IMG/VR virus record: IMGVR_UViG_3300037508_000741
Location: 1 to 21,713 of that record
From: a virus
Length of the DNA: 21,713 nt
Reading direction: 5' to 3' (one strand)
Shown: positions 8,311 through 21,045 of the stretch, one piece after another
Layout of the letters: every line of letters begins with the position of its first letter
How positions within the stretch are numbered: the stretch's first letter is position 1
Notes under the pieces: model-generated
Seen by the model: only the letters and a program-made list of their open reading frames with translations
Databases searched by the model: none
Told to the model about the DNA's origin: nothing
Made by a program: the position numbers and the translations under genes

Positions 8311-8319
8311 CGCCGCCGA

Positions 8320-8520: not shown

Positions 8521-8523
8521 CGT

Positions 8524-8559
8524 TTGTCTGTGGTTGATGCTGTTAGTCTACAGGGTCAG
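8524..8559 (-). promoter_or_regulatory. Repeated island promoter element, copy 4 (36-bp repeat)
   Basis: Core at 8536-8557; all 36 bp match copy 3. The TAA stop of the upstream membrane gene (8545-8543) lies inside the element, made from its TAGACTAAC sequence. Confidence 0.7.
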
Positions 8560-8707: not shown

Positions 8708-9135
8708 TAGTCGCTGAAGATGTGGCAGGAACGATAGGACGTGCCATCATCACAAGAGGTGAAATCGTAGCGCAGGTTGCGATCGTAAGTTGCCTCCCAA
8801 TCAATCACCAAACCATCGGGAACATTCATGGTTTCGTTATAGTAATCCTCAGCGAAGTCTGCCTCAGAATCGTAACACCCACGGTAGCGATCATCGCAAC
8901 CTTCGATGTTATCAATTCCATCCTCACTGGCGAGTGCATCTACTGCCTCGTATCCGATCGCTTCACCACAGCGAACATACTCCTCGTAGATGTTAACGAA
9001 GGCACGCTCATTGTACTCATCAATGAACTCCAGAATGTCATCCAGAGCGTAGTTATCTTCGAGCAATTCTTCGATCTTCTCGACAGTTTCAGTGCTGAGA
9101 ACTTCTTTGTAGTTAGCGGTCAAAGTGATGGACAT
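8704..9135 (-). CDS. ArdA-like antirestriction protein
   Basis: A 143-residue, strongly acidic protein. The centre and C-terminus follow the ArdA pattern: EFIDEYNERAFVNIYEEY, AIGYEAVDAL, then D-x-Y-RGCYDSEADFAEDYYNE, P-x-GLVIDWEATYDRNLRYDF and a final HIFSDY. ArdA proteins mimic DNA and block type I restriction enzymes. The ATG at 9135 is preferred over the one at 9201, because the extra 22 residues (MGKILHHRRGD...) are basic and unlike the family. The gene is visibly less GC-rich than its neighbours. It has its own strong promoter at 9253-9281 with a leader of more than 100 nt. Confidence 0.7.
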   Translation of the reverse strand: MSITLTANYKEVLSTETVEKIEELLEDNYALDDILEFIDEYNERAFVNIYEEYVRCGEAIGYEAVDALASEDGIDNIEGCDDRYRGCYDSEADFAEDYYNETMNVPDGLVIDWEATYDRNLRYDFTSCDDGTSYRSCHIFSDY

Positions 9136-9252
9136 TTGTGAAGTGAAATGGTTTGGGGTGGGGCACCGATCTCCCCTACGGTGGTGAAGGATCTTACCCA
9201 TGACCTGTCCCGATGTCGGGTGGTTTCGCTGGGAGGGTTCGCTTCTGAAGGT

Positions 9253-9281
9253 AGTATGGAGCAGATCGGGGGGAAAGTCAA
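9253..9281 (-). promoter_or_regulatory. Sigma70-like promoter for the ArdA-like gene
   Basis: Minus strand TTGACT (9281-9276), 17 bp, CATACT (9258-9253). The -35 is followed by TTCCCCCC, like the promoters at 10653 and 11556. A CAAGTGG/CCGCTTG stem with one G-U pair lies just upstream and overlaps the -35. The leader of about 110 nt contains a CCCGA/TCGGG hairpin. Confidence 0.8.
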
Positions 9282-9306
9282 GCGGTCTGTGCCACTTGTT
9301 GAACTG

Positions 9307-9468
9307 TCACATCCCGTTCAGGAAATCGGCAAGCGCCTCCCTATACTCTGCCTCAGTCTCAAAGGTGCGACCGTGGATAGTACGGGGGTACTCTGCCTTA
9401 GGAGCAGGTGCCTTGCTGGGCTCCTTGCCCTGGGCGATGATCTGAGCGATGTAGGGGTTGTTTGTCAT
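9307..9468 (-). CDS. Small hypothetical protein (53 aa)
   Basis: A 53-codon frame beginning MTNNPYIAQIIAQGKEPSKA and ending EALADFLNGM. A short disordered Lys/Pro/Ala segment separates two helices (PYIAQIIAQG and TEAEYREALADFL). The fifth copy of the repeated island promoter overlaps its ATG by 3 nt: the element ends GCATG, so the message would be leaderless or nearly so. It ends just upstream of the ArdA promoter. No family recognised. Confidence 0.6.
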   Translation of the reverse strand: MTNNPYIAQIIAQGKEPSKAPAPKAEYPRTIHGRTFETEAEYREALADFLNGM

Positions 9469-9487
9469 GCTGTTAGTCTACAGGGTC
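9466..9487 (-). promoter_or_regulatory. Repeated island promoter element, copy 5
   Basis: Twenty-one of 22 bases match copies 1-4. Here the ATG at 9468-9466 is part of the element, only about 9 nt after TAGACT (9481-9476 region), which places translation start at or next to the transcript start. Confidence 0.6.
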
Positions 9488-9491
9488 AGGT

Positions 9492-9508
9492 GGGGGATCC
9501 GATCCCCC
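9492..9508 (-). terminator. Stem-loop between gene stop and promoter copy 5
   Basis: GGGGGATC-C-GATCCCCC, perfect arms. It lies between the TGA of the 63-residue gene and the next promoter element, so it can end one transcript before the next begins. There is no U-tract. Confidence 0.5.
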
Positions 9509-9521
9509 TTGTGCCAGTGTG

Positions 9522-9713
9522 TCAGGCGTCCATCCCCATCGCTGCCTTCAGGTCGTTGTATGCCTTCAGGTAGTAGTCTGCATCGCTGCCCTTACCTGCC
9601 ACGCGGCAGTCACAGGCAAGGCACAGGAGAGCGGTACGGATCGTGCTCCACTGTGCCTCGGTGAGGGTCACCGTGGCGAGGTCAAGGGGAAGGACGTTGG
9701 TTCGGACGGTCAT
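9522..9713 (-). CDS. Small helical hypothetical protein (63 aa)
   Basis: A 63-residue protein beginning MTVRTNVLPLDLATVTLTEA and ending YNDLKAAMGMDA. LTEAQWSTIRTALL and YYLKAYNDLKAAM look like two helices joined by a CLACDCRVAGKG segment with three cysteines. The ATG at 9713 is preferred over an upstream one because a -10-like TATACT lies at 9744-9739 and a leader ending AAACGACCCG precedes it. The pattern LTEAQW-x-x-I-x-x-AL resembles many small phage proteins of unknown function. Confidence 0.65.
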   Translation of the reverse strand: MTVRTNVLPLDLATVTLTEAQWSTIRTALLCLACDCRVAGKGSDADYYLKAYNDLKAAMGMDA

Positions 9714-9763: not shown

Positions 9764-9786
9764 GGGAGTGGTAGTGTACCACTCCC
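9764..9786 (-). terminator. Stem-loop after the 44-residue gene
   Basis: GGGAGTGGTA-GTG-TACCACTCCC, perfect 10-bp arms and a 3-nt loop. It follows the stop at 9794 by 7 nt and precedes the next promoter, the same order as at 9492-9508. No U-tract. Confidence 0.6.
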
Positions 9787-9793
9787 TGAACTG

Positions 9794-9928
9794 TCACTCC
9801 TCGGGTCCGAAGCAGCACTCAAGGCAGAACGCCTCCAGCTCTGCATCATCATCCATGGGCCAGGGTTGATCGAAGATCTCACCCTCGCAGTCCTGAATCT
9901 CATCCCAAAGGCAGGTGTCGAAGTCCAT
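9794..9928 (-). CDS. Small acidic protein (44 aa)
   Basis: A 44-residue protein beginning MDFDTCLWDEIQDCEGEIFD and ending CLECCFGPEE. It is extremely acidic, with five cysteines including CLECC. The ATG at 9928 is preceded by a leader ending AAACGACCCG and by TATACT with a TTGTAG -35 at 16 bp. Highly acidic small phage proteins can mimic DNA or bind host polymerase, but nothing specific is seen here. Confidence 0.6.
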   Translation of the reverse strand: MDFDTCLWDEIQDCEGEIFDQPWPMDDDAELEAFCLECCFGPEE

Positions 9929-10624: not shown

Positions 10625-10679
10625 AGAATAGATCATCAGGGGGTGAAAGTCAACCCCCTGAGCGATAAGCATTGCTTAT
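10625..10679 (-). promoter_or_regulatory. Strong promoter with 17-nt upstream element and -35 stem-loop
   Basis: Minus strand order: element ATAAGCAATGCTTATCG (10679-10663), 9 nt, TTGACT (10653-10648), 17 bp, TATTCT (10630-10625). CAGGGGGT/ACCCCCTG arms (10637-10644 and 10653-10660) enclose an 8-nt loop holding most of the -35. The upstream element is itself a perfect palindrome, ATAAGCA-T-TGCTTAT in its core. Confidence 0.8.
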
Positions 10680-10713
10680 GTTACATATTAGAGATAGTTA
10701 TTTGACAATGATA

Positions 10714-10851
10714 TCAGAATTCGATAGTCTCAAGGGTAGGAGAATTCTGATACTCATCCACCGAATCTTCGGTCAGAGTGTCAAGAACTGCCATCAGTTC
10801 GTTACCATCAGCGGCACGATTGAGCAGGGAAAGCATCACTTCTTTGGTCAT
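10714..10851 (-). CDS. Small acidic cyanophage protein (45 aa)
   Basis: A 45-codon frame beginning MTKEVMLSLLNRAADGNELM and ending YQNSPTLETIEF. The pattern LLNRA-x-DGNEL-x-x-x-LDTLTEDSVDEY looks like a small helical family common in cyanophage early regions. It lies 42 nt downstream of the 42-residue gene, separated from it by the hairpin at 10884-10910, and upstream of the strong promoter at 10625-10679. Function unknown. Confidence 0.7.
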   Translation of the reverse strand: MTKEVMLSLLNRAADGNELMAVLDTLTEDSVDEYQNSPTLETIEF

Positions 10852-10883
10852 AATGTTGTTGGGGGTAAGGTATACTAAAGGGA

Positions 10884-10910
10884 TTGAATATGATTAGATA
10901 TCATATTCAA
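10884..10910. terminator. Stem-loop overlapping the end of the 42-residue gene
   Basis: TTGAATATGA, 7-nt loop, TCATATTCAA; perfect 10-bp arms. The loop contains the stop codon of the 42-residue gene. On the minus strand it is followed by TTTAGTATACC, a possible weak -10 for the next gene. Confidence 0.45.
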
Positions 10911-11022
10911 TTTCCATTACATTATCAATGGAATAATCATCAACAATGTAACCATCTTCATCAAGGAAGATATCAGCCATTTCTTGTTCTACAATTTCAG
11001 TGTACATTTCAGAAGTGGTCAT
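10894..11022 (-). CDS. Small acidic protein (42 aa)
   Basis: A 42-codon frame beginning MTTSEMYTEIVEQEMADIFL and ending NVMEIEYDI, strongly acidic. It has the best Shine-Dalgarno site of this part of the window (AAGGAG 7 nt before ATG), unlike most neighbours, whose leaders lack one. A perfect 28-bp palindrome lies 26 nt upstream of the start. Function unknown. Confidence 0.7.
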   Translation of the reverse strand: MTTSEMYTEIVEQEMADIFLDEDGYIVDDYSIDNVMEIEYDI

Positions 11023-11047
11023 TCATTAACTCCTTTGATTGTTAATT

Positions 11048-11075
11048 AAATTTATAACTTTAAAGTTATAAATTT
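11048..11075. repeat. Perfect 28-bp AT palindrome
   Basis: AAATTTATAACTTT and its exact complement, centred between 11061 and 11062. It lies upstream of the 42-residue gene and could be an operator, a cruciform or part of an origin-like region. Confidence 0.7.
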
Positions 11076-11099
11076 TAAGTTTTGTTAGAATTTAAAAAC

Positions 11100-11192
11100 T
11101 TAAAGATTCTGAGGTTTCTGAGAATTTTAAGTTTTCAAGGTTTCTGAGAATTCAAGATTTCGTAAAATTCTCAGAAACCTCAGAATCTTTAA
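11100..11192. repeat. 30-bp perfect inverted repeat with 33-nt spacer
   Basis: Arms 11100-11129 and 11163-11192 are exact complements over 30 bp (arm begins TAAAGATTCTGAGG on the plus strand). The spacer carries another copy of the GGTTTCTGAGAATT part. The right arm includes the stop codon of the 104-residue gene, so the transcript end would fold into a long hairpin. Confidence 0.85.
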
Positions 11193-11503
11193 TTCAGACG
11201 CATTCCAGAAAAGAAAGGAATCGCGCCGCCCGCTTGACTCACAAACCACTGACCTTTCTTCTGAAAGACACGCTCACCAGGAACACCATGCTCGGTGAGA
11301 ATAGCATTCAGGCGAGACTTGGTGGTGACAGTCTGCCAACCACCATCAAACAGGCGAATCCAATTGTCACCAACCTCGGCAATCAAGTTACCATGAAGGC
11401 GAACCTGAGACACACCATCAATATTCATGACGCTGGTATTGTCACCACGCCAATCAACCTCACGGGTGATGGCAGCGTTCATTTGGCGTTCGATGAGGCG
11501 CAT
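11189..11503 (-). CDS. Conserved phage/bacterial hypothetical protein (104 aa)
   Basis: A 104-residue protein beginning MRLIERQMNAAITREVDWRG, with the pattern NTSV-x-x-x-x-G-x-S-x-V-x-LHGN-x-IA, W-x-T-VTTKSRLNAIL and VFQKKGQWFV. This arrangement is familiar from small proteins in many phages and in some bacteria; the domain is beta-rich and its role is unknown to me. The ATG at 11503 is supported by the leader ending AAACGACCC and the strong promoter at 11528-11556. Its stop lies in the 30-bp inverted repeat. Confidence 0.8.
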   Translation of the reverse strand: MRLIERQMNAAITREVDWRGDNTSVMNIDGVSQVRLHGNLIAEVGDNWIRLFDGGWQTVTTKSRLNAILTEHGVPGERVFQKKGQWFVSQAGGAIPFFSGMRLN

Positions 11504-11527
11504 GGGTCGTTTGCTCTTGACTTAGTT

Positions 11528-11582
11528 AGTATGGCAGGGGTGGGGGTGAAAGTCAACCCCCCTAACCATCACCTTTGCTTAT
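11528..11582 (-). promoter_or_regulatory. Strong promoter with upstream element and -35 stem-loop
   Basis: Minus strand: ATAAGCAAAGGTGATGG (11582-11566, a degenerate copy of the 17-nt element), 9 nt, TTGACT (11556-11551), 17 bp, CATACT (11533-11528). GGGGGT/ACCCCC arms enclose the same 8-nt GAAAGTCA (plus strand) loop as at 10637-10660. Confidence 0.8.
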
Positions 11583-11606
11583 GGGTCAGATTAGAGGGGC
11601 TTATAG

Positions 11607-11674
11607 AGTTTTCCACAGGGCTGTGGAAAACTTTCAATAGTTTTCCACAGGTTTTGTTATATCTGTGGAAAACT
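11607..11674. repeat. Two inverted pairs of DnaA-box-like TTTTCCACA
   Basis: AGTTTTCCACAG and its complement occur twice: 11607-11618/11621-11632 (2-nt loop) and 11639-11650/11663-11674 (12-nt loop). The 9-mer TTTTCCACA matches what I recall as the DnaA box of Synechococcus elongatus. The second pair begins 6 nt after the stop of the 54-residue gene, so a 3'-end hairpin role is also possible. Confidence 0.7.
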
Positions 11675-11679
11675 TTTAC

Positions 11680-11844
11680 TTACCATTGTATATCATCACC
11701 GTCAAACTTAAGTTTCTTCTGCTTCTTGGGAGTTCGTCCCTTGTTTTGTACTTTCACGCCATACTGGATTTCTAAATCTTGCTCATCAAATTCATCGAAG
11801 TCGTTATAGAATTCTTTGAAGTTGTTTCCCTTTGCTTTAGCCAT
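11680..11844 (-). CDS. Small charged protein (54 aa)
   Basis: A 54-codon frame beginning MAKAKGNNFKEFYNDFDEFD, then a basic NKGRTPKKQKKLKF and an acidic DGDDIQW end. The strong charge segregation (acidic middle, basic segment, acidic tip) suggests binding to nucleic acid or a host protein. No clear promoter; the region 11845-11950 has TTGTCA but a poor -10. Two TTTTCCACA hairpins follow its stop. It resembles small cyanophage proteins but no function is known. Confidence 0.7.
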   Translation of the reverse strand: MAKAKGNNFKEFYNDFDEFDEQDLEIQYGVKVQNKGRTPKKQKKLKFDGDDIQW

Positions 11845-11950
11845 TAGATTGAAATGTGTCCTGAGAGGTGTCTAGAATCGTCTGTAAGGGATATTGACAA
11901 CCAAATTGGTGTCTTTACCCCTTGACAAACTTATTTAGTGTGTGGTAGGG

Positions 11951-12193
11951 TCAGTCAACCAGCAGTTTCAGAGTGCCTTGATTGACACTCTGACTCACAA
12001 ATCGTCCCACCGAAACATCTTCGGTGTCGAATTCTGCCAACAGTTGCTGATCAAAACCCTCAGCATCTTCGGTACTGTAAGTATACTGTTTGTTACCATT
12101 GTTATATTCAATGGCTACAGTGTTCTTCTCAGTATCAATAACAATGTTTTTAATGGCAGAACTAGGAAGATCCTGGTAGTTTTTAACAGTCAT
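11951..12193 (-). CDS. KTSC-domain-like protein (80 aa)
   Basis: An 80-residue protein, MTVKNYQDLPSSAIKNIVID at the start, then KNTVAIEYNNGNKQYTYST, and VGRFVSQSVNQGTLKLL near the end. SS-x-I, a V-x-I-x-Y strand, NG-x-x-Y-x-Y and a late GRF-V match the KTSC domain, as in the island gene at 8320-8520, although the two proteins are quite different in sequence and base composition. It is alone on a transcript from a near-perfect promoter (12221-12249). Confidence 0.65.
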   Translation of the reverse strand: MTVKNYQDLPSSAIKNIVIDTEKNTVAIEYNNGNKQYTYSTEDAEGFDQQLLAEFDTEDVSVGRFVSQSVNQGTLKLLVD

Positions 12194-12220
12194 TGAATCC
12201 CTTTGATTGATTACTTAGTA

Positions 12221-12274
12221 ATAATACCAGTCTTTTCCAGTCTTGTCAACCCTTTTTTGATAAGTTCTGCTTAT
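12221..12274 (-). promoter_or_regulatory. Strong promoter with upstream element and start-site palindrome
   Basis: Minus strand TTGACA (12249-12244), 17 bp, TATTAT (12226-12221). ATTACTTAGTAAT (12210-12222) overlaps the -10/start. A weaker form of the 17-nt element, ATAAGCAGAACTTATC, lies 8 rather than 9 nt upstream of the -35. Confidence 0.8.
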
Positions 12275-12641
12275 TATAACCATAAGTTATAATTATAAGA
12301 CTTCAAAAATCTCAAAAATCTCAAAAAACTCAAATTTTAAGTTTTCTAAAAACTCGAAAAACTCGAAAACCCTTGGAAATACAGGATTCTCAGATTTTGC
12401 CGTTTTGAGATTTTTGAGATTTTTGGGGATTTTGAGATTTTTGAGTTTTCTGACAAAGGCTTGACAATCGTTAGGTCGCGTGCTAAGACTACAACAAACT
12501 CAGACATTTCGTAGCATATACGAGGTCTCTGAGGCACCTTGACAACTTAATACACCTTATTGCTAATGATTCTCAATAGCACTATAAAGAACCAATACCT
12601 ATTTTTTTAACCATTTAAATTATGTAACAATTTCAAACACT
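12275..12641. other. AT-rich non-coding stretch with long inverted repeats
   Basis: No convincing gene. It contains tandem 9-mers of CTCAAAAAT type near 12302-12330, their complements near 12403-12450, and a CTCGAAAAA pair near 12352-12370. A 63-codon minus-strand frame at 12346-12537 merely reads through the repeats. On the minus strand a possible promoter, TTGTCA with TATATG at 19 bp near 12510-12545, would transcribe the repeats as a non-coding RNA; this is speculative. Confidence 0.6.
12305..12424. repeat. 22-bp perfect inverted repeat built of CTCAAAAAT units
   Basis: Arms 12305-12326 and 12403-12424 are exact complements over 22 bp with a 76-nt spacer. The arms are tandem copies of a 9-mer, as in iteron-like arrays, and each side has further partial copies. 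Confidence 0.8.
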
Positions 12642-12662
12642 TTTTCCACAACCTGTGGAAAA
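12642..12662. repeat. Third inverted pair of TTTTCCACA
   Basis: TTTTCCACA-ACC-TGTGGAAAA. It starts 6 nt after the stop of the 83-residue gene, the same placement as the pair after the 54-residue gene. Confidence 0.7.
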
Positions 12663-12667
12663 CTCTA

Positions 12668-12919
12668 TTACTTATCTCTATATGGATTCCAATTATCATT
12701 ACCTACACTCTTATGATATGGTATAAAGAGTACGTTTTGTTTACTATCTGAATGTCTAGCAGCAAACCAATCAAAGAACTCTTCTTCTACTGCTTGAGCA
12801 TTAAGACGATAGTATGTTTTATTCTTTGGTGTTTTACGTTTCTTGGCTGTAGAAAGCAGGGAATCAATACGATCCCCCGCCCAGTCAATTAATTCATTGT
12901 ATTGTTGTTCATGCGACAT
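12668..12919 (-). CDS. Hypothetical protein (83 aa)
   Basis: An 83-residue protein beginning MSHEQQYNELIDWAGDRIDS, with a basic STAKKRKTPKNKTYYRLN segment, then EEEFFDWFAARHSDSKQNVL and a C-terminal NDNWNPYRDK. It overlaps the upstream gene by 11 nt and is the last gene of the three-gene operon led by the promoter at 13338-13366. A TTTTCCACA hairpin follows the stop. No family recognised. Confidence 0.7.
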   Translation of the reverse strand: MSHEQQYNELIDWAGDRIDSLLSTAKKRKTPKNKTYYRLNAQAVEEEFFDWFAARHSDSKQNVLFIPYHKSVGNDNWNPYRDK

Positions 12920-13112
12920 AGAGAGTCATGTTATAATGGTCATAGGAAGCGAAGGTTTGATCTTCGGGTAGAGCATCAATCAACATGTGAACAAACTCAG
13001 CAGGAAAGAGATCACGCTTTCTGAGTAACTTAGTGCGTTCTTCATCAGTAAGATCAGAAGAATCAATAATCACTTTGTAGCTAGTGGGAGTGAGCGGGGA
13101 GAGAGTAATCAT
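12909..13112 (-). CDS. Hypothetical protein (67 aa)
   Basis: A 67-residue protein beginning MITLSPLTPTSYKVIIDSSD, then LTDEERTKLLRKRDLFPAEF, ending SYDHYNMTLYVA. One beta-rich end surrounds a charged helix. It overlaps both neighbours (4 nt with the upstream gene as ATGA, 11 nt with the downstream gene), indicating tight translational coupling. Function unknown. Confidence 0.7.
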   Translation of the reverse strand: MITLSPLTPTSYKVIIDSSDLTDEERTKLLRKRDLFPAEFVHMLIDALPEDQTFASYDHYNMTLYVA

Positions 13113-13315
13113 TTTACTTTGTCTGTAAGTTGAAGTTGACGTTCACGAGCGAGACTGTTAATCTGCTCTATGTAGTAGAATAGAGACGCATAGAACTCAA
13201 TATCCTCATCATTATGATGAGTCATGGTAATACGTTCTGTTTTACCATTGGAGCGCACATAGAGACCATCAGGTTGTTGCCAGAAGATCTCATTACCAAG
13301 TGCGACGTAGTTCAT
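13109..13315 (-). CDS. Hypothetical protein (68 aa)
   Basis: A 68-residue protein starting MNYVALGNEIFWQQPDGLYV, then RSNGKTERITMTHHNDEDIE and a helical LFYYIEQINSLARERQLQL. The ATG at 13315 is chosen over a frame extension to 13381 because a strong promoter (13338-13366) lies inside the extension. The first half looks like a small beta sheet that reads a peptide or nucleic acid; this is a guess. First gene of a three-gene operon. Confidence 0.7.
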   Translation of the reverse strand: MNYVALGNEIFWQQPDGLYVRSNGKTERITMTHHNDEDIEFYASLFYYIEQINSLARERQLQLTDKVK

Positions 13316-13337
13316 AGCGTTAGTTGCGACTTGATTC

Positions 13338-13366
13338 AGTTTAACAGAAAATCTATTGAGTGTCAA
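13338..13366 (-). promoter_or_regulatory. Sigma70-like promoter for the three-gene operon
   Basis: Minus strand TTGACA (13366-13361), 17 bp, TAAACT (13343-13338), 22 nt before the ATG at 13315. The stop codon of the upstream 57-residue gene lies 6 nt from the -35. Confidence 0.85.
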
Positions 13367-13526
13367 GAGATCTACGAGCAAAGAACTTCATACAATTTTG
13401 AAAGTCATTCCATTCTTTATCAGTGATATTATCTGTAGCGTATGGAATGTTAAGCGCAGTGGCACAGAATTTTTGATGTTCTGGATTGTGTGCGATGAGT
13501 TGTGTAATAAGGAAGAGATCAATCAT
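13353..13526 (-). CDS. Hypothetical protein (57 aa)
   Basis: A 57-residue protein beginning MIDLFLITQLIAHNPEHQKF and ending MKFFARRSLDTQ. The start at 13526 (ATG) is preferred over a TTG nine bases earlier. The segment NITDKEWNDFQNCMKFFA is helical. Its start overlaps the stop of the upstream 40-residue membrane gene by 8 nt. Last gene of the six-gene operon that begins at 14426. Confidence 0.7.
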   Translation of the reverse strand: MIDLFLITQLIAHNPEHQKFCATALNIPYATDNITDKEWNDFQNCMKFFARRSLDTQ

Positions 13527-13641
13527 GATTCTCAAACTCTTTCATGAATCCTTCCAAACGTTTGTTGGCACGATAGTTTTGAATGATGTCCATGATAGAA
13601 TAACCAAACGAAAATCCAGCCATGATAGCAATAATAGTCAT
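13519..13641 (-). CDS. Small membrane protein (40 aa)
   Basis: A 40-codon frame beginning MTIIAIMAGFSFGYSIMDII and ending MKEFENHD. An N-terminal hydrophobic helix is followed by a charged tail QNYRANKRLEGF. The start overlaps the zinc-ribbon gene stop (ATGA) and its end overlaps the next start by 8 nt. Too short for common gene callers but firmly placed by overlaps on both sides. Confidence 0.7.
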   Translation of the reverse strand: MTIIAIMAGFSFGYSIMDIIQNYRANKRLEGFMKEFENHD

Positions 13642-13850
13642 ACAGTTTCTCCTTTAAGTGTACCGTCAAGATTAAAGATTGTGCCACAGTCAGGGCAATG
13701 GTAAGAATGTGTTCTATCTGTCTCCCACGATTGAAGAGCGATGACTCTCGAATAGAAATAGGGAGGAGAGTATGAATCGTGAAGATGTTCGGGAATAGGA
13801 ATCGTATGCCACAGCGCGTTACATGCGGGGCAGTGAGAGAGTTTTTCCAT
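13638..13850 (-). CDS. Zinc-ribbon protein (70 aa)
   Basis: A 70-residue protein with two CxxC knuckles: CPAC at residues 7-10 and CPDC at about 51-54, separated by a Tyr/His/Pro-rich middle (HLHDSYSPPYFYSR). This is the layout of a small zinc ribbon, usually a protein or nucleic-acid binder. It overlaps neighbours by 1 nt at its start (TAATG) and 4 nt at its end. It could act on host transcription, but nothing beyond the zinc site supports that. Confidence 0.8.
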   Translation of the reverse strand: MEKLSHCPACNALWHTIPIPEHLHDSYSPPYFYSRVIALQSWETDRTHSYHCPDCGTIFNLDGTLKGETV

Positions 13851-14011
13851 TATGCGGTCATGATTTTGTTGTACAAATCTTCGAAGATTTCACGCTCTGT
13901 TGTATCAAGATTACTGACAAACTCAGAATCCACCAGCATTAACAGTATATCCTGAAGTAGAATATACTCTTCATACAACAGCGGTTCACCTTGATAAATT
14001 GCGTGTGTCAT
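13850..14011 (-). CDS. Small acidic helical protein (53 aa)
   Basis: A 53-codon frame beginning MTHAIYQGEPLLYEEYILLQ and ending DLYNKIMTA. It is nearly all helical, acidic and leucine-rich (DILLMLVDSEFV). It is coupled on both sides: ATGA overlap with the upstream membrane gene and TAATG with the zinc-ribbon gene. No family recognised. Confidence 0.7.
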   Translation of the reverse strand: MTHAIYQGEPLLYEEYILLQDILLMLVDSEFVSNLDTTEREIFEDLYNKIMTA

Positions 14012-14169
14012 TTACAATCAGGATGCCAAACTTTCAGTTGCTCACAATACTGTTTCTGTTTCGCATCATAAGCATCAAACAATTTATTGTCACGCACAAT
14101 GAGAAATGCGTTCCAACCAAACATTGCCGCAAACAGCAATGTAAAAGTTACAATGTACTTAGAAGACAT
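14008..14169 (-). CDS. Small single-helix membrane protein (53 aa)
   Basis: A 53-codon frame beginning MSSKYIVTFTLLFAAMFGWN, with a transmembrane helix at about residues 5-25, then a charged RDNKLFDAYDAKQKQYCEQL and a C-terminal HPDCK. Two cysteines in the tail could form a disulphide if exported. The ATG overlaps the TGA of the upstream gene by one base (TGATG). Second gene of the operon. Confidence 0.7.
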   Translation of the reverse strand: MSSKYIVTFTLLFAAMFGWNAFLIVRDNKLFDAYDAKQKQYCEQLKVWHPDCK

Positions 14170-14426
14170 CAGCAAGCACCGTGAAAAGGATTACCGAGTT
14201 GAGGAAGATTCGAATTGTCGCGGGTTTCGATATAACCATGAGCAAGACGCTCACGAATATCCAGTGCCATCTCAATACGATTCAGAAACTTTTTAGACAC
14301 TTGACCATGAGGAGCAAAAGTCACAGCACGAAGAAACCATTCCTTGCTGATGTCACCATACGGCGTCTTCACAGGATAGAAATCAACAACCATGTTACCA
14401 TCTTTGCTGGTCAGTTGCGGGGTCAT
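14169..14426 (-). CDS. Hypothetical protein (85 aa)
   Basis: An 85-residue protein starting MTPQLTSKDGNMVVDFYPVK, then TPYGDISKEWFLRAVTFAPH and a helical FLNRIEMALDIRERLAHGYI. The start at 14426 fits a 24-nt leader after the -10 at 14451. It leads a six-gene operon whose genes all overlap. It could be a nucleic-acid or regulator protein, but no domain is recognised. Confidence 0.7.
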   Translation of the reverse strand: MTPQLTSKDGNMVVDFYPVKTPYGDISKEWFLRAVTFAPHGQVSKKFLNRIEMALDIRERLAHGYIETRDNSNLPQLGNPFHGAC

Positions 14427-14450
14427 GTCGGTTCCCTTGATTACCTTAGT

Positions 14451-14505
14451 AATATAGGGCATCAGTCAGCAAAAGTCAAGCGCCCAGCCGATGAGCGTTG
14501 CTTAT
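14451..14505 (-). promoter_or_regulatory. Strong promoter within the methyltransferase 3' end, with upstream element
   Basis: Minus strand: ATAAGCAACGCTCATCG (14505-14489), 9 nt, TTGACT (14479-14474), 17 bp, TATATT (14456-14451). ATTACCTTAGTAAT (14440-14453) covers the start region. The element and -35 encode the last residues of the methyltransferase. Confidence 0.85.
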
Positions 14506-15370
14506 CAATCACAGATTGTATTCTCGTTGTGCTTATGTCTGTGTAGTGTTGTGACAAATCAATTCCTACAAAATTTCTATTTTCTTCAATCGCCGCAACG
14601 CCTGTGCTGCCTGAACCACAGAAGGGGTCCAGCACCGTAGAATTGACAGGAGAATAGATTCTGATAAGATATGCCATCAAATCAATCGGTTTGACTGTAG
14701 GATGGTCGTTGAAATCTCCTTTCTCTTTACGAGTAGCACGGGGAGCATAGAAATACTTCTGATGCTCTGAATCTACTTCACCAATAATATTGGAAGGATA
14801 ACGCCCAGCAGGATTCGCATCCACTGTCCCACACTCAGCACCAGAACCTTTGGTGTTACCATCACGACCAAATGTACGGCGACTGGCACCACCTTTCACC
14901 CAACCAGTAGGAGGTTTCTTATCCCACGGCACACGAGTATTCTCAACATCAATCAGACCACATCCCCACTGCTCAAAGTTATCCTTGAGTGTGCCTTTGT
15001 AAGGCTTCTGTGCCACTACAATCGGTTCGTGTGCGGGTTTGAGACGATTGTGTTTAGGCATCTTGGTGGTGGTCATCCACATAATCTGATCCTTGATTTC
15101 AAACCCAGCATCCTCCACATTCACCGCCAGACGATGATACAATTCAGGAGAACAGAAAGCTAAACAAAAAGCACCAGGGCGAAGTGTACGAAACACCTCG
15201 CGCCAGATGTCTACACTGGGCACAGAATGATCCCAGTGATCCATACCCATACCATAGGGAGGATCAGTGATACAAGAATGAAAAGTGTTCTCCCCATATG
15301 TGGAGAGAACATCTTGACAATTACCAGTTGTGATTGAGAACGTTGAATTCACAGGTTTGTCTGTCGGCAT
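14462..15370 (-). CDS. DNA adenine-type (N6/N4) methyltransferase
   Basis: A 302-residue amino-methyltransferase of the type II modification family (N6/N4 MTase). The catalytic motif DPPYG is at residues 36-40, the S-adenosylmethionine motif FCGSGSTG at about 250-257, preceded by HPTVKP near 223, so motif IV comes before motif I (beta-class order). The DPPY form is typical of N6-adenine enzymes. The ATG at 15370 (MPTDKPVNS) is used; the open frame upstream belongs to the nuclease. It overlaps the nuclease gene by 50 nt. Target sequence cannot be read from the protein. It may modify phage DNA to protect it from the neighbouring nuclease or from host enzymes. Confidence 0.9.
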   Translation of the reverse strand: MPTDKPVNSTFSITTGNCQDVLSTYGENTFHSCITDPPYGMGMDHWDHSVPSVDIWREVFRTLRPGAFCLAFCSPELYHRLAVNVEDAGFEIKDQIMWMTTTKMPKHNRLKPAHEPIVVAQKPYKGTLKDNFEQWGCGLIDVENTRVPWDKKPPTGWVKGGASRRTFGRDGNTKGSGAECGTVDANPAGRYPSNIIGEVDSEHQKYFYAPRATRKEKGDFNDHPTVKPIDLMAYLIRIYSPVNSTVLDPFCGSGSTGVAAIEENRNFVGIDLSQHYTDISTTRIQSVIDKQRSSAGRLTFAD

Positions 15371-15854
15371 GAGTGAAATAATCGGTTTTGTCTTTACCAC
15401 CAGACTGAGTATACATGTTGCGAATGTAGAAGTCAAATCCACGATTATCGTTCTGCCATTCCTCATCCAGTTGATAAGTTTTGAGAACAGCGTTGAGATC
15501 TTCCACCAGTTGAGCGTAGAGTTCACGCTTACGGTGAGAAACTACATCATCAGCAAAGAAAATTGTTGTATCGTTGTATTTCTTGGTGCTGAAGATATAG
15601 ACTACACCTTCTTTAGGAAGTCCACCGTTGTATGTAGGAAATGTTTGTTTCGAAGACTTACATTCAATGTCAACAGTTTTACCGCTGGGAAGTGTCACGC
15701 GAAAGTCAGGCGATGCCTGTGAACCATTCGGTTGATACACATATGTATAACCATATTTGTCAAGCAAATCTTTTACTTGCTGTTCGTGAAGCGGATTGTC
15801 TTGCGAATTGGATTTGTAAGGAAGTGTAAGAACTTCTTGCCAGAATTGTTTCAT
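15321..15854 (-). CDS. PD-(D/E)XK nuclease, probable type II restriction endonuclease
   Basis: A 177-residue protein with a PD-(D/E)XK active site: E24 in an N-terminal helix (HEQQVKDLLDKYGY), SPDF with PD at 49-50, and VDIECKSS with ECK at 64-66. The spacing and a QTFPTYNGGLPKEGVVYIFS strand pattern match small restriction endonucleases. It overlaps the methyltransferase by 50 nt, the usual sign of a restriction-modification pair. The ATG at 15854 is preferred; a TTG further up lies at the transcript start. A promoter with an 18-bp spacer precedes it. It could also be a replication or repair nuclease. Confidence 0.75.
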   Translation of the reverse strand: MKQFWQEVLTLPYKSNSQDNPLHEQQVKDLLDKYGYTYVYQPNGSQASPDFRVTLPSGKTVDIECKSSKQTFPTYNGGLPKEGVVYIFSTKKYNDTTIFFADDVVSHRKRELYAQLVEDLNAVLKTYQLDEEWQNDNRGFDFYIRNMYTQSGGKDKTDYFTHADRQTCEFNVLNHNW

Positions 15855-15894
15855 GAATTTCTCGGACTCGATTGCCCGTTGAAAGAACAAATAG

Positions 15895-15924
15895 AATATA
15901 GCATGGGCGGTGGGAGTCTGTCAA
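15895..15924 (-). promoter_or_regulatory. Promoter for the nuclease-methyltransferase pair
   Basis: Minus strand TTGACA (15924-15919), 18 bp, TATATT (15900-15895), then 41 nt to the nuclease ATG. It overlaps the 3' end of the 62-residue gene. G-tract and CTCCC on either side of the -35 allow a weak hairpin. Confidence 0.8.
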
Positions 15925-16109
15925 CCCCCCTCAAGCGGCAATTTGCCCCGCCCCTTGGGCTTTTTTGTTTTCGTGTTTTTTTGTTGATTTCGAATGTAGG
16001 CGACCGCCTCTGCTGCCGAATTTACGTCCGCAATCTGCTGCCCATTGTAAAGTATAACGTATTTAGTGTCATACCAGGGCACTGCGGCATATCCATCTTT
16101 AGTAATCAT
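15921..16109 (-). CDS. Small hypothetical protein (62 aa)
   Basis: A 62-residue protein, MITKDGYAAVPWYDTKYVIL at the start, then YNGQQIADVNSAAEAVAYIR and a Lys-rich KNTKTKKPKGRGK tail. The first part looks like a small beta-beta-helix fold; the tail suggests nucleic acid binding. It lies between the helicase and the nuclease and may be cotranscribed with the helicase. No family recognised. Confidence 0.65.
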   Translation of the reverse strand: MITKDGYAAVPWYDTKYVILYNGQQIADVNSAAEAVAYIRNQQKNTKTKKPKGRGKLPLEGG

Positions 16110-16192
16110 AGGTGTTCGTTTGTACTTTGGTATTTTTCGGTGATCTGGCTGCGAGAAAGGGGCAACAGGTCATCCCGCTGCCCCCTTGACAA

Positions 16193-17449
16193 TTATGCGA
16201 TAATGGAAGTGGGAGGGACACCCTGAACGAAGATAGCATCAACAACATTCTGAAGACGCTTCTGAATCTGAGCACCGTAGTTGCCGTAGATAGGCACAGT
16301 CACGAAACCAAACGGTTTGCGATAGCTACCCAGGTCACCAGCAGTGATACGACCTTCCGCAATGTCACGCGCATCATCCATATTCATGCGGATAACGCGA
16401 CCGATCGTTTGCGCCATCTCCACAATGTTGAGGTTACGAAGGAGCACACAATGCGTCAGACCAGGAACATTCATGCCTTCAGACAGAATGCTGTAGTGAA
16501 ACACCACAAACTTACGATTAGGATCTTTGCCCCACGCAGTCAGCGTGTCAAAGAATACCTCACGATTCACTTTCTGCTTGTTGACATAGGCACCATGCTT
16601 GGCGGTGATGTGAAGCACATCATAACCACGCTCAGACAGTTCCTGAAGCATCGCAGTTTGTGCTACCATACCCCAGATAATCTTGCTGCTAGGTGCTGCT
16701 ACCAGAATCTTCTGACCAGCATCAGCATCAAGATTGTCAATAATATCAAGCACAGTGTTGCTGTCACAGTTGGCAGCATTATCCTTAGTGCGAGTCACCA
16801 TGTCCTGCTCATGAATAACAATCTGAGGAGGAATGATACTACCAGACTGAATCAGTTCTTGAGCAGGTACAGTATGAAGAACCTTGCCAAACACAAGCGA
16901 ATTGTTCATACCACGACCCATCGGATTCTTAGACTGACGAGGAGTAGCAGTAAAGAAATAGCAAGCGTCAGACATCTGCGAAACCATAGCAGTTTTAGGA
17001 AAGAACTGCTTGCTGGTAGCATTATGCGCTTCATCGAAGTAAGCTACATCAATGTCAATACCTGCCTCAACAATCTGGTGAAGAGAATGATAGGTGGTGA
17101 AGATAACCTGATGAGCACCAGCAGCAAGACAGACGCCAGTGTGAACAGCAATCTGAGCAGGTTTGGTGGTGCTGTAATAATGAGTGTCGCCAGAGTGAAC
17201 ATGAAGCACCTCAACATTCATGTTGTAGGTGTTGATAACCTCCATGTATTCCTCACACAACTGGTTGACCAGCAGCAACCTGGGACAAATAACAACCGCC
17301 GTGAGAGGGCGCTGAGAGGCGCTCAGACGGCGCACAAGGTCCATAATGGCAATCAGGGTCTTGCCACCGCCAGTGGGCACATAGACGCTGCCGTGGGTGG
17401 CAGTCAGCATCGCATCAATGGCACGTTGCTGGTGGGGACGAAGTTTCAT
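16193..17449 (-). CDS. SF2 DEAD/DEAH-type helicase (UvsW/restriction-subunit-like)
   Basis: A 418-residue superfamily-2 helicase: Q-tip LRPHQQRAID, Walker A PTGGGKT at 25-31, DEAH at 139-142, motif III TATPR at 167-171, and motif VI QTIGRVIR at about 347-354. This size and pattern fit the UvsW-type helicases of T4-like phages, which act in recombination, origin resolution and fork restart; single-chain type III-restriction-R-like helicases look similar. The ATG at 17449 is supported by the promoter at 17473-17501. A GC-rich hairpin follows its stop near 16160-16190. Confidence 0.85.
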   Translation of the reverse strand: MKLRPHQQRAIDAMLTATHGSVYVPTGGGKTLIAIMDLVRRLSASQRPLTAVVICPRLLLVNQLCEEYMEVINTYNMNVEVLHVHSGDTHYYSTTKPAQIAVHTGVCLAAGAHQVIFTTYHSLHQIVEAGIDIDVAYFDEAHNATSKQFFPKTAMVSQMSDACYFFTATPRQSKNPMGRGMNNSLVFGKVLHTVPAQELIQSGSIIPPQIVIHEQDMVTRTKDNAANCDSNTVLDIIDNLDADAGQKILVAAPSSKIIWGMVAQTAMLQELSERGYDVLHITAKHGAYVNKQKVNREVFFDTLTAWGKDPNRKFVVFHYSILSEGMNVPGLTHCVLLRNLNIVEMAQTIGRVIRMNMDDARDIAEGRITAGDLGSYRKPFGFVTVPIYGNYGAQIQKRLQNVVDAIFVQGVPPTSIIA

Positions 17450-17472
17450 GTGAATGTCGTTTGTATGAATAT

Positions 17473-17527
17473 AGTATGGCACGAAAAAGCAGGGAGCGCA
17501 AGCCCCCTGCCGATAAGCATTCCTTAT
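17473..17527 (-). promoter_or_regulatory. Promoter for the helicase with upstream element and -35 stem-loop
   Basis: Minus strand: ATAAGGAATGCTTATCG (17527-17511), 9 nt, TTGCGC (17501-17496), 17 bp, CATACT (17478-17473). GCAGGG/CCCTGC arms (17489-17510) form a hairpin with the -35 in its apical part. Confidence 0.75.
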
Positions 17528-17530
17528 TGC

Positions 17531-18574
17531 TCAGTTCCAAACAAGATAGTAAAGCTTAGCAGGATCTTCTTCTTGTAGATCTTGAGCAAGAAAGCGATGT
17601 TCACACTCAACATGATTCCAAGGAAAATTAGAACCACAACGTTCATGAATCATACCCATGATAGTACAGATTTGACGCTCAACGCTCTTCAAATCATCGG
17701 TAAATACCTTTGCGCGAGTAGTATCAAGTTCTTGTTTTTGATAGAGTTTAACCGAAATCAGCAGGTGAAGAGGTTTGTTGGCAGCAGATGCTTGTGCCGC
17801 CATGTTAATCAGACTATTGATTCGAGAATCAAAATTGTTCATGTTGATATACATGGTATACTCAGAAGTATTGTTCCAATACTCATTCACCCAAGGATCT
17901 TCAGTATTTTGAAAAAACAGATCCAGTTTCTCATCATTCCAATCAGTAAAACGAGTTTCTGAAGTTACTTTACCACTAAAGATACGCTCAGCAATCAAAC
18001 GATTGTATACAGATTTGATAGAACTTTCAGAAATAGCTCCAGTACCAAGAAAACGGACTTCGGTTTTAATATCTTCGTCAGTGATAATAGCACCAAGATT
18101 GATGAGAGCACGAATAGCAGATTCTACATCTTCGCGGGAAGGAGGATTGTAAACATCTTCACGCTTTTTATTAGAAGCAAGGGCAAACTTAATCTTTGCT
18201 ACTTCATCGGCAAAACGAACACCTTGCGCCATCCATCCATCAATACCAAGTATATTAGATGCAAGGAAACGATGCTCACCATTGATACGATCAAGCGTAT
18301 CTACATCATAGTAAATAACAGGTTTGTCAGTATCAATGCCATTAGTTTCAATATCCAATTTAAGTTTTTCTACCTGACCAAGATTAGCACCAAAAGCGCG
18401 ACCAGGATTCTTCCAAGGATTCAAAAGATCCCACTTCATCATATGAGGTGTGCCGACAAGTTCAACACCATCAATATTGTATGTACTAGGAGTGTAACAC
18501 CAAGAATCAGGATCACAAGCAATAGCATCCCAATAAGTAGAAACAAAATTGTGTTCGGCAACAGAAGCAATCAT
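17531..18574 (-). CDS. ParB/sulfiredoxin-like domain protein (347 aa)
   Basis: A 347-residue protein. LGQVEKLKLDIETNGIDTDK followed by PVIYYD and RINGEHRFLA (NGEHR at 98-102) matches the ParB/Srx nuclease-like fold, in which a G-x-H-R motif binds nucleotide. DEVAKIKFALASNKKREDVYNPP corresponds to the following ParB helix. The C-terminal two-thirds (about 140-347) is helical and without recognised domain. Such proteins occur in many phages and in DNA-modification or defence clusters; the function here is unknown. It is alone behind its own promoter, followed by the helicase promoter. Confidence 0.7.
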   Translation of the reverse strand: MIASVAEHNFVSTYWDAIACDPDSWCYTPSTYNIDGVELVGTPHMMKWDLLNPWKNPGRAFGANLGQVEKLKLDIETNGIDTDKPVIYYDVDTLDRINGEHRFLASNILGIDGWMAQGVRFADEVAKIKFALASNKKREDVYNPPSREDVESAIRALINLGAIITDEDIKTEVRFLGTGAISESSIKSVYNRLIAERIFSGKVTSETRFTDWNDEKLDLFFQNTEDPWVNEYWNNTSEYTMYINMNNFDSRINSLINMAAQASAANKPLHLLISVKLYQKQELDTTRAKVFTDDLKSVERQICTIMGMIHERCGSNFPWNHVECEHRFLAQDLQEEDPAKLYYLVWN

Positions 18575-18597
18575 GTGTTTGGATCAAGAATAGAAGT

Positions 18598-18626
18598 ATA
18601 ATACCAGTTTTGAGGGGATCTGGCAA
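18598..18626 (-). promoter_or_regulatory. Promoter for the ParB-like gene
   Basis: Minus strand TTGCCA (18626-18621), 17 bp, TATTAT (18603-18598). GGGG/CCCC arms flank the -35 (18614-18630), again placing it in a hairpin loop. Leader ends AAACAC before ATG. Confidence 0.8.
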
Positions 18627-18650
18627 CCCCATGTTAGCAATCCGTAACGA

Positions 18651-19058
18651 TTACTTATTCATCTGAAGTGTAGGCACAGGCATACCACCTTCAGTAGGCA
18701 CATAGATGGTCACGTTACCTTTCTGCGAACCTTCTTCAATACCAGTGATGTACAGATACTGAAGATACTCACGGTTATCTTTCAGTGAATCACCGATGAT
18801 TTGGTTTGCTTTAGCAACACCACCAGCACGAATAATCTCTGCCTCAGCAAGCTGTTGAGCACTATCTTTCTTTGCTTGTGCTTCCAACACTGCTACCTGA
18901 CGAGTATATTCTGCTTTTTGAAGTTCTGCTTTACCAGCAAGAGATTGTTGCCACACATTATATTGTGGACCACCGATGAATACGATGGCAGCAAACACAC
19001 CCACACCAAGCGCAACAGCAGCAACGGTAGGGTCAATAAATCCAGAATTACGAGTCAT
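18651..19058 (-). CDS. Prohibitin/SPFH-like membrane protein (135 aa)
   Basis: A 135-residue protein: MTRNSGFIDPTVAAVALGVG starts a transmembrane helix (residues 11-29). Then follows a long Ala/Glu/Gln-rich coiled helix (KAELQKAEYTRQVAVLEAQA), a GVAKANQIIGDSLKDNREYL segment, and an IYVPTEGGMPVPTL tail. This layout (membrane anchor, AEA-rich helix, GxAxA, L-x-x-YL-x-x-L) resembles the C-terminal half of prohibitin/HflC proteins without the band-7 domain. It has a strong ribosome site (AAGGAG 7 nt before ATG) and overlaps the upstream gene by 11 nt. It could modulate a host membrane protease such as FtsH; this is inference. Confidence 0.65.
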   Translation of the reverse strand: MTRNSGFIDPTVAAVALGVGVFAAIVFIGGPQYNVWQQSLAGKAELQKAEYTRQVAVLEAQAKKDSAQQLAEAEIIRAGGVAKANQIIGDSLKDNREYLQYLYITGIEEGSQKGNVTIYVPTEGGMPVPTLQMNK

Positions 19059-19272
19059 AATCAATCTCCTTGTAGGTATAACCAAAGCCGCGTTGTGCCT
19101 TGATGTTGTTTTGAATTTGTTTTTTCAGTTGTTTATACTTGTATGTTTGCTTTTTAAAATCTACATATTGACTAACGTAATTAACCCGAGTATTCTCTTC
19201 GGGAGAAGGAGAATTCTCCTCCTCCACCACTTCTTCAGATGTTACGTCAATAACTTGTTCTTCGTTCAACAT
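19048..19272 (-). CDS. Hypothetical protein (74 aa)
   Basis: A 74-residue protein beginning MLNEEQVIDVTSEEVVEEEN, very acidic in its first third, then basic and aromatic (DFKKQTYKYKQLKKQIQNNI). This charge split suggests binding to a nucleic acid or to a partner. It overlaps both neighbours (7 nt with the conserved phage gene, 11 nt with the membrane protein). Function unknown. Confidence 0.7.
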   Translation of the reverse strand: MLNEEQVIDVTSEEVVEEENSPSPEENTRVNYVSQYVDFKKQTYKYKQLKKQIQNNIKAQRGFGYTYKEIDYDS

Positions 19273-19658
19273 GCGAGTGCTCCAGTAGGAATTTCAGCGA
19301 TGGTGGGCATAGTGTTTTCTTCAAACAGATGAAGATTGTAGCACACCCAGTCACCATTTACATACAGGTAAGCATACTCTTCACCAGAGTTGTTACCACA
19401 GAGATAATCATATTTGTTTTCATCAAGGCGAGGAGGAGTATACTCTTCACCGCGATCAGTATAATACTCAGGTTCGTTGTTATCGTTCCAGCAAGTGCTC
19501 ATGTCACCACCATCAATCAGTTCAGCAACTTTATCTTTGGTGTTGTAATGAGTCTTCAGAATACGACCAAGCCACTCAGGATAACCATCCCAGTGATGAT
19601 ACACAGAGAGCACAGATTCGTCAGCGAGTTGAATACCAATGCGAGAGCGAGTTGCCAT
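19266..19658 (-). CDS. Conserved phage HWDGYP-family protein (130 aa)
   Basis: A 130-residue protein beginning MATRSRIGIQLADESVLSVY, then HHWDGYPEWLGRILKTHYNT and VAELIDGGDMSTC. The opening T-R-S-x-I-x-x-x, YxHWDGYP and KV-x-x-LI-x-x-G pattern is widespread in phages and in some bacteria as an uncharacterised small protein. The later part holds WVCYNLHLF. It is the third gene of its operon, 5 nt after the 28-residue membrane gene. Role unknown, but conservation implies a real gene. Confidence 0.85.
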   Translation of the reverse strand: MATRSRIGIQLADESVLSVYHHWDGYPEWLGRILKTHYNTKDKVAELIDGGDMSTCWNDNNEPEYYTDRGEEYTPPRLDENKYDYLCGNNSGEEYAYLYVNGDWVCYNLHLFEENTMPTIAEIPTGALAC

Positions 19659-19663
19659 GATGT

Positions 19664-19750
19664 TCAGCGGTAAATGGTTTTGAAAAAGAATACGATGCCA
19701 CCAACTAAAAGAATGTAGGTGGCAAGCACAGAAAGATTAACAATATCCAT
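19664..19750 (-). CDS. Very small membrane peptide (28 aa)
   Basis: A 28-codon frame beginning MDIVNLSVLATYILLVGGIV and ending FKTIYR: one transmembrane helix. Its ATG shares a base with the TGA of the upstream gene (TGATG) and it ends 5 nt before the next start, so it is translated as part of the operon despite its size. Confidence 0.55.
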   Translation of the reverse strand: MDIVNLSVLATYILLVGGIVFFFKTIYR

Positions 19751-19944
19751 CAGAGAAGACAGAAAGAACCACAATAGTTTTGTGCCCAGTTAAGTGCTTC
19801 ATTCAACGGGCGAGGATTAGAAACCACCATGCTGTTACCTTCAACCTCAGCAACACAGACATATTCAGGGTTGCGAAGAGACATAGAAGGAACAAGAGTC
19901 AGGGTGCCTTGCTTGCCGCGACCAGCAGTGTAGTGGAAGACCAT
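19750..19944 (-). CDS. Hypothetical protein (64 aa)
   Basis: A 64-residue protein beginning MVFHYTAGRGKQGTLTLVPS, then NPEYVCVAEVEGNSMVVSNP and a helical LNEALNWAQNYCGSF. A beta-strand-rich first part and a short amphipathic helix. It leads the operon that ends with the SPFH-like membrane protein, behind a very strong promoter. No family recognised. Confidence 0.7.
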   Translation of the reverse strand: MVFHYTAGRGKQGTLTLVPSMSLRNPEYVCVAEVEGNSMVVSNPRPLNEALNWAQNYCGSFCLL

Positions 19945-19970
19945 CGGGGGTGTGTCTCGATTACCTATGT

Positions 19971-20025
19971 AATATACTGGATTTGGGCGCTGGAGTCAAG
20001 GGGTTGAACGATCAGCGTTGCTTAT
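19971..20025 (-). promoter_or_regulatory. Strong promoter with upstream element and start-site palindrome
   Basis: Minus strand: ATAAGCAACGCTGATCG (20025-20009), 9 nt, TTGACT (19999-19994), 17 bp, TATATT (19976-19971). ATTACCTATGTAAT (19960-19973) overlaps the start region. The element encodes the end of the upstream 46-residue gene. Confidence 0.85.
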
Positions 20026-20719: not shown

Positions 20720-21045
20720 GCACTCCACCCATTAGAGCTTCTCATGAATGCTTCAAGCACTGATAAGCGAGACTTAACATCGCACATATCACGCTGTAGA
20801 TATTCGTAATCATCCTTCAGATAGTTATGCTGAAGAGCTTCATTGATAAACTTATCACGATACTCATTCAGTTCATCTTCTGTTTCAACATAGATGTTTT
20901 GAAGTTCTTCATATTTAATTTTGAGTTCTTCAAAGTTACGACGCCACGAGTCACGCTCTTTCTTCACGGCATCGTATTCCATTTTCATCAACACTTCATC
21001 ACTATACTGTGCCATGTATTTAAGATCCTGTATTGTTTGATTCAT
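20716..21045 (-). CDS. Coiled-coil protein (109 aa)
   Basis: A 109-residue protein, almost wholly coiled coil from about residue 20 to 100: DAVKKERDSWRRNFEELKIK, then EELQNIYVETEDELNEYRDK and a final SRLSVLEAFMRSS. It may scaffold or bind a host protein. Its start overlaps the upstream gene by 26 nt, a longer overlap than most neighbours. No family assigned. Confidence 0.75.
   Translation of the reverse strand: MNQTIQDLKYMAQYSDEVLMKMEYDAVKKERDSWRRNFEELKIKYEELQNIYVETEDELNEYRDKFINEALQHNYLKDDYEYLQRDMCDVKSRLSVLEAFMRSSNGWSA

Follow-up and report, generated by a model that had tools for sequence, protein, structure and literature searches.

A near-palindromic box at a fixed distance upstream of the −35 element in promoters of T4-like cyanophages

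How T4-like cyanophages take over host RNA polymerase is the question addressed here. These phages have, to our knowledge, no MotA/AsiA route. A novel early-gene regulatory element was reportedly found by Doron et al. 2016 in the cyanophages Syn9 and P-TIM40 and is said to be conserved among T4-like cyanophages, and at the late-promoter sites of P2 Ogr and P4 delta a phage activator, bound to a dyad near −55, contacts the alpha subunit. T4 middle promoters carry a MotA box centred at −30 that replaces the −35 element (PMC2988021), T4-type phages have composite early promoter/stem-loop cassettes (PeSLs; Arbiol 2010 and Comeau 2014, as cited in PMC4503421), and host PhoB binds promoters of cyanophage S-PM2d (PMC10976474). 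Here we describe the A-box, a 17-nucleotide (nt) near-palindrome with the core ATAAG-N5-CTNAT that lies upstream of sigma-70-type promoters in a virus record of 21,713 bases (IMGVR_UViG_3300037508_000741; below, the window, within which all positions are counted) and in many other viral contigs.

The window is read as a T4-like cyanophage contig on the basis of open reading frames (ORFs) judged by eye to encode T4-like baseplate proteins and of one ORF matching the Kyanoviridae family PF23790 (Pfam). Known isolates match it in part only, and longer contigs (L005, L006, L011 and L017) hold promoter sequences identical to those of the window. When the conserved core is scored, the minus strand carries seven A-boxes (Table 1) and the plus strand carries no copy. 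The box ends 9 nt before the −35 element in six of the seven and 8 nt before it in the other, and the −35/−10 spacing is 17 nt in all seven. G occupies box position 5 in 7/7 copies and C position 11 in 6/7. An initial annotation had placed five copies (starting at 10679, 14505, 17527, 20025 and 11582) exactly 9 nt before a −35 element with 17 nt to the −10, and a weaker one (12274-12258) at 8 nt; coordinates and spacings hold for all six, the weaker copy preceding TTGACA with 17 nt to its −10, and the copy at 20745-20729 is additional. Matches to the 17-mer at the annotated positions comprise four copies with no more than one mismatch and one with three. With up to three mismatches, the window contains 7 matches (two of them plus-strand readings of the same palindromes) against 0.35 expected, and none of 100 shuffles reaches 7. 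It had also been noted that two copies lie in coding 3′ ends, which is right for those at 14489 (a methyltransferase ORF) and 20009 (a 46-amino-acid ORF); the 17511 copy begins 3 nt past a stop codon and the remaining copies look intergenic.

The same geometry recurs across viral contigs. A scan for the 17-mer followed after 0–30 nt by TTGAC gave 40 matches, with 27 at gap 9, 4 at gap 8, 5 at gap 6 and 4 at gaps 24–28. A looser scan required a −10 element, allowed gaps of 4–14 and spacers of 16 or 17 nt, and was counted among the matches listed. These include 140 distinct sites, in 100 of 141 loci, with the gap at 8 or 9 in 137 (70 at gap 8, 67 at gap 9, and one each at 6, 10 and 14) and the spacer at 17 nt in 136. 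The inferred +1, 7 nt after the −10 element, is a purine in 133 of 134 listed sites and +2 is T in 120 of 134; both bases lay outside the search pattern, and their conservation is as expected of a real start site. Relative to this start, the box spans about −61 to −44 and is centred at about −54. At its free positions C6, A7, A8, Y9 and C16 are preferred, C is avoided at 13, and an A is usual 4 nt past the box. Chance or a single shared intergenic repeat was rejected as the source of the pattern: 108 sites fall into 63 clusters at 80% identity (box to −10), and the upstream flanks and spacers, which were free in the search, carry little information.

The box also predicts a promoter when it is searched alone. 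In 11 box-bearing records, 75 of 97 readings of the box pattern have a −10 element in register (30–33 nt), against 5.9 expected from other offsets; TTG stands at −35 in 68 of these 75, and some of the remaining readings come from the opposite strand of these palindromes. The refuting condition named in the initial annotation, a box equally common away from promoters, is not borne out: across 12 box-bearing records, two of which (the window and G003) have sequence in common, 76 of 103 readings are in promoter layout, and several of the 27 others read these sites on the opposite strand. In a first subset of A-box loci, at least one Kyanoviridae-like ORF was found in 69 of 73 and at least three in 64 of 73.

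Among 22 isolate records, the A-box promoter pattern occurs in two, S-CREM1 (4) and S-H38 (6), with none in the other 20; a search of five other, box-less isolates for the A-box also gave 0. The A-boxes cluster in a stretch of small genes, at 65–86 kb in S-CREM1, 68–77 kb plus one at 148 kb in S-H38, and 103–118 kb in G364. As a separate observation, G364 and G363 (232–236 kb and 1–7 kb), both contigs of about 245 kb, carry clustered A-box promoters with 11 and 5 pattern matches, respectively, and both have a second type of box.

This second palindrome, the B-box (GTGNCA-N10-TGNCAC), was found on listing promoters of phages that lack the A-box, and it takes the same position. Beside TTGAC, its gap is 7 or 8 in 79 of 147 distinct matches (gaps of 2–14 allowed), which puts the centre of the palindrome 18.5 or 19.5 nt ahead of the −35 element, compared with 18 or 19 nt for the A-box. 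In 16 records the B-box pattern occurs at 53 places, which give 106 strand readings against 2 for a backward control; 47 of the 53 places have a −10 element in register, where chance would give about 10 of 106 readings, and TTG is absent from −35 in 34 of those 47. Offsets from B-box to −10 are most frequent at 30–31 nt, with 24 and 17 of 112 readings. A dyad profile built independently of both motifs gave its top value 19.0 nt before the −35 element in the A-box set, with 34.0 second and 18.0 third, and 18.5 nt in the other isolates, with 19.5 next; these tops vanish once A- and B-box sites are taken out. By exact pattern, S-CREM1, S-H38, G367 and G009 have the A-box without the B-box, S-PM2, Syn9, S-CRM01, ACG-2014j and S-BM3 have the B-box without the A-box, and G001, G003, G004, G005, G363 and G364 have both; G007 has the A-box plus one B-box place without a −10 element, and S-CREM1 also holds degenerate B-like sites.

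At a probability of roughly 0.55, we favour the reading that a dimeric activator binds the A-box and works, from a site at about −54, on the host sigma-70 promoters that T4-like cyanophages carry. The phage rather than the host would most likely make or deliver this protein, and the A-box would belong to a set of two or more exchangeable boxes. Class-I activator sites have this arrangement, with a dyad held at one distance from the −35 element on its upstream side, and the fixed distance, the dyad and the location just upstream of the −35 element together suggest a dimer touching the polymerase. A dimeric protein would bind the box, and the bound dimer would contact RNA polymerase, for example at the alpha C-terminal domain, from a class-I-like position. 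That B-box promoters without TTG use the same position argues for activation there and, by analogy, at the A-box; A-box promoters mostly keep their −35 element, so activation is less firmly indicated for them. The lack of a clear host excess of the box (see below) argues for a phage factor, and the gene content makes an early-gene role of A-box promoters, as proposed in the initial annotation, plausible; if these promoters were immediate-early, the factor would have to come in with the virion or be active from the earliest transcripts onwards. The A-box and B-box may be exchangeable at the one position. A more tentative extension, which we hold to be somewhat less probable than not, is a modular early-promoter code in which a socket at about −54 would take an A or a B palindrome, each read by a different phage-encoded or virion-delivered dimeric activator, with the B-type letting promoters dispense with the −35 element and boxes being exchanged among lineages.

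Several results do not fit the simple picture. The five gap-6 matches are one repeated and possibly coding sequence, ATAAGTAAAGCTCATCG, before TTGACA without a −10 element (L013, L015, L028, L030 and L031), and four further matches lie at gaps 24–28. Four of the 73 loci (L251, L277, L283 and L292) have no Kyanoviridae-like ORF; L251 and L292 are parts of the contigs G363 and G364, which have families in common with these phages, and L277 and L283 stand as exceptions. With up to two mismatches, ACG-2014j and P-SSM2 have single A-box matches, compared with 1 and 3 for the backward control. Other observations weigh against the activator reading itself. The differences in the dyad profile are small (0.332 against a mean of 0.264). 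The count in host genomes is slightly above control (22 versus 14), in a search that used the phage consensus and one family, which may not be that of the true host of the contig. In contrast to the B-box promoters, 68 of the 75 A-box promoters with a −10 element keep TTG, so they could do without an activator, and this position would also serve a repressor. Lastly, no DNA-binding family tracks the A-box in a blastp comparison of ORFs of at least 40 amino acids between box-bearing and box-less phages.

Individual candidates for the binding protein were rejected on their distribution. A helix-turn-helix-like protein of 74 amino acids (phrog_1920) also occurs in box-less phages and has only a distant relative in S-H38; MazE/AbrB-like proteins do not follow the box in their distribution; a protein annotated as Arc-like is also in Syn9; a 61-amino-acid family is also in the box-less S-CAM3 and S-B64; and a basic protein family has members in nine records with the box and likewise in S-PM2, S-RIM8 and others, for a total of 170 phage records. 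The window ORF at 13638-13850, a zinc-ribbon-like protein of 70 amino acids, has relatives in G001, G005 and S-PM2; as a binder it was set aside because it has no match in S-CREM1 or S-H38.

The alternatives differ in what would read the box. A phage-encoded repressor or shut-off factor could use it as an operator to turn these promoters off at a later stage of infection: the promoters are mostly consensus-like at −35 and −10 and could fire unaided. We regard this as unlikely, since the site lies outside the core promoter, where its spacing suits polymerase contact over occlusion, and since the equivalent B-box position is found mostly at promoters without TTG (34 of 47), which argues for activation. 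Of the two roles put forward in the initial annotation, an activator site or an UP-like element, the former is the better supported, by the dyad, the fixed distance to the polymerase, a host count not clearly above control and a position shared with a second palindrome mostly at promoters lacking TTG. An UP-like element read directly by the RNA polymerase alpha C-terminal domain would suit the overlap of the box with the usual UP region and its G+C content of 34%; it fits poorly with the nearly invariant G5 and C11 of the window copies, the dyad symmetry, the rigid 8–9-nt offset and the absence of the box before host TTGAC promoters, and is improbable.

A host regulator exploited by the phage, as PhoB is by S-PM2d genes, is also rather unlikely, even though promoters that fire first must work before phage proteins exist and PhoB binding to S-PM2d promoters has been published (PMC10976474). 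The A-box was matched 22 times in 350 Cyanobiaceae genomes, in 21 of them, and the backward control 14 times. This slightly favours a host factor, but the excess is small, and with TTGAC 0–22 nt downstream there was one match in the 350 genomes, at gap 1, and none at gap 8–9, and a near-identical pattern was found in 0 of six genomes reached via psbA loci (all six also among the 350). A Cyanobiaceae regulon element is not supported. Known host sites are likewise rare in the 108 A-sites, with 0 for the NtcA site GTA-N8-TAC and 3 and 0 for the Pho box forms CTTA-N7-CTTA and PyTTAAPyPyW, and of 101 host-family genomes 3 contain the B-box and 2 its control. Least likely, and very much so, is that the box is an RNA stem-loop or terminator of the upstream gene, or a mere recombination cassette of the PeSL kind. 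Stems of at least 6 bp across the −35 element do occur in 27 of 108 A-sites, the mean stem length exceeds that of all 200 permutations, and the window copy at 17511 is fused to a terminator-like hairpin; terminator overlap is nevertheless confined to a minority of sites, with only 10 of 108 spacers containing TTTT, and it was dropped as a general feature. The search pattern fixed A-box positions 1–5, 11, 12, 14 and 15, R10 and S16, that is, most arm positions, so covariation is testable only at 6–10 and 7–9 in the A-box and at 4–19 and 7–16 in the B-box. Among the listed A-box sites, 6–10 is paired in 58 of 134 (58.2 if independent) and 7–9 in 46 of 134 (49.9); B-box pairs 4–19 and 7–16 are paired in 8 and 10 of 19 (9.5 expected each). 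Only 41 of 134 listed sites have a base at position 13 that pairs with A3, and this pair tests no covariation because A3 was fixed by the search. Pairing at the level of independence together with a relaxed position 13 is what a protein dimer site with one relaxed half would give, and an RNA hairpin is not supported. The ability of the box to predict an in-register −10 element is also unlike a terminator or a cassette edge.

Table 1. Promoter boxes and related repeats of the window (gap, nt between box and −35 element; strand, − for minus)
Feature	Sequence	Position	Strand	Gap (nt)	−35 element	−10 element	Context
A-box 1	ATAAGCAATGCTTATCG	10663..10679	-	9	TTGACT 10653-10648	TATTCT 10630-10625	followed by ATG of small ORF
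A-box 2 (weaker)	ATAAGCAAAGGTGATGG	11566..11582	-	9	TTGACT 11556-11551	CATACT 11533-11528	upstream of Kyano_Gp96 (PF23790) ORF 11189-11503
A-box 3	ATAAGCAGAACTTATCA	12258..12274	-	8	TTGACA 12249-12244	TATTAT 12226-12221	upstream of 80-aa ORF 11951-12193
A-box 4	ATAAGCAACGCTCATCG	14489..14505	-	9	TTGACT 14479-14474	TATATT 14456-14451	within 3′ end of N6/N4 DNA methyltransferase ORF 14462-15526
A-box 5	ATAAGGAATGCTTATCG	17511..17527	-	9	TTGCGC 17501-17496	CATACT 17478-17473	upstream of helicase ORF 16193-17449
A-box 6	ATAAGCAACGCTGATCG	20009..20025	-	9	TTGACT 19999-19994	TATATT 19976-19971	overlaps 3′ end of 46-aa ORF; upstream of 64-aa ORF 19750-19944
A-box 7 (degenerate)	ATGAGAAGCTCTAATGG	20729..20745	-	9	TTGACA 20719-20714	TATATT 20696-20691	upstream of DUF7717 (PF24835) ORF 20300-20665
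B-box	GTGACAGTTCAACAAGTGGCAC	9289..9310	-	7	TTGACT 9281-9276	CATACT 9258-9253	upstream of ORF 8704-9201
B-box-like	GTGACAGTTCAGGGAGTGGTAC	9776..9797	-		consensus absent	TATACT, in register	same sequence in G003
Five near-identical −10/leader repeats	CCCTGTAGACTAACAGCAT	7763..9532	-		consensus absent	starts at 9480, 8550, 8301, 8121, 7768	

Within the window, the −35 element of A-box 5 is poor and sits in a 10-pair terminator-like hairpin (17511-17488) followed by TTTTC. The stop codon just upstream of this box belongs to an ORF of 347 amino acids (17531-18574) that is ParB/sulfiredoxin-like by eye, with no Pfam match at E 0.01. The ORF after the B-box at 9310 has an ArdA-like match below threshold, an identity that would be in keeping with an early gene, and each of the five CCCTGTAGACTAACAGCAT repeats has a degenerate B-box-like stretch at the expected distance upstream and an ATG within 30 nt. 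Elsewhere, TTTTCCACAG occurs as five exact copies and one near copy in facing pairs (11609-11672 and 12642-12662); with one mismatch allowed there are 7 in the window against 2.41 expected, a number reached by 3 of 100 shuffles, and the arrangement resembles DnaA-box clusters. Two A/T-rich stretches (11060-11185 and 12290-12450) contain, by eye, repeated TCTGAGAATT and AAAACTCAAAA-like units, and a strong sigma-70-like promoter at 15895-15924 on the minus strand (TTGACA, 18 nt, TATATT) has by eye neither an A-box nor a B-box.

A box of rigid geometry that many metagenomic contigs carry, and that is also found in two isolates whose hosts are in culture (S-CREM1 and S-H38), is a direct handle for fishing out its regulator, and it allows such regions to be annotated in uncultured cyanophages. 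Unrelated palindromes sharing one position, as the A-box and B-box do, would make a clean natural example of operator specificity that has been swapped.

Compared with described systems, the A-box resembles the P2 Ogr and P4 delta sites in the position of its dyad and differs from them in sequence, and no Ogr-type gene was identified. The A-box and the MotA box of T4 are both phage elements with a fixed position and both work together with a sigma-70 −10 element; the centre of the A-box, however, lies 18–19 nt before the −35 element rather than at −30, and the TTG is mostly kept. PeSLs share with A-box promoters the form of repeated cassettes in variable-gene regions, and some A-box promoters overlap a hairpin, but the constant part here is the palindrome at −54 and stems across the −35 element are in the minority (stem-loops farther upstream were uncounted). 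The PhoB sites of S-PM2d are also upstream regulator sites of cyanophage promoters; they belong to a host regulator and have another sequence. T4-type early promoters combine an A/T-rich UP element with TGn, whereas TG precedes the −10 element in 22 of 108 A-sites and the window boxes conserve G5 and C11. Searches of the open-licence PMC literature turned up no description of the A-box. Because B-boxes are present in both Syn9 and P-TIM40, the B-box may be the early element of Doron et al. 2016; the A-box is absent from Syn9 and is not found in promoter layout in P-TIM40, so it has at least a different specificity and is, on present evidence, a new specificity of that kind of early-element promoter.

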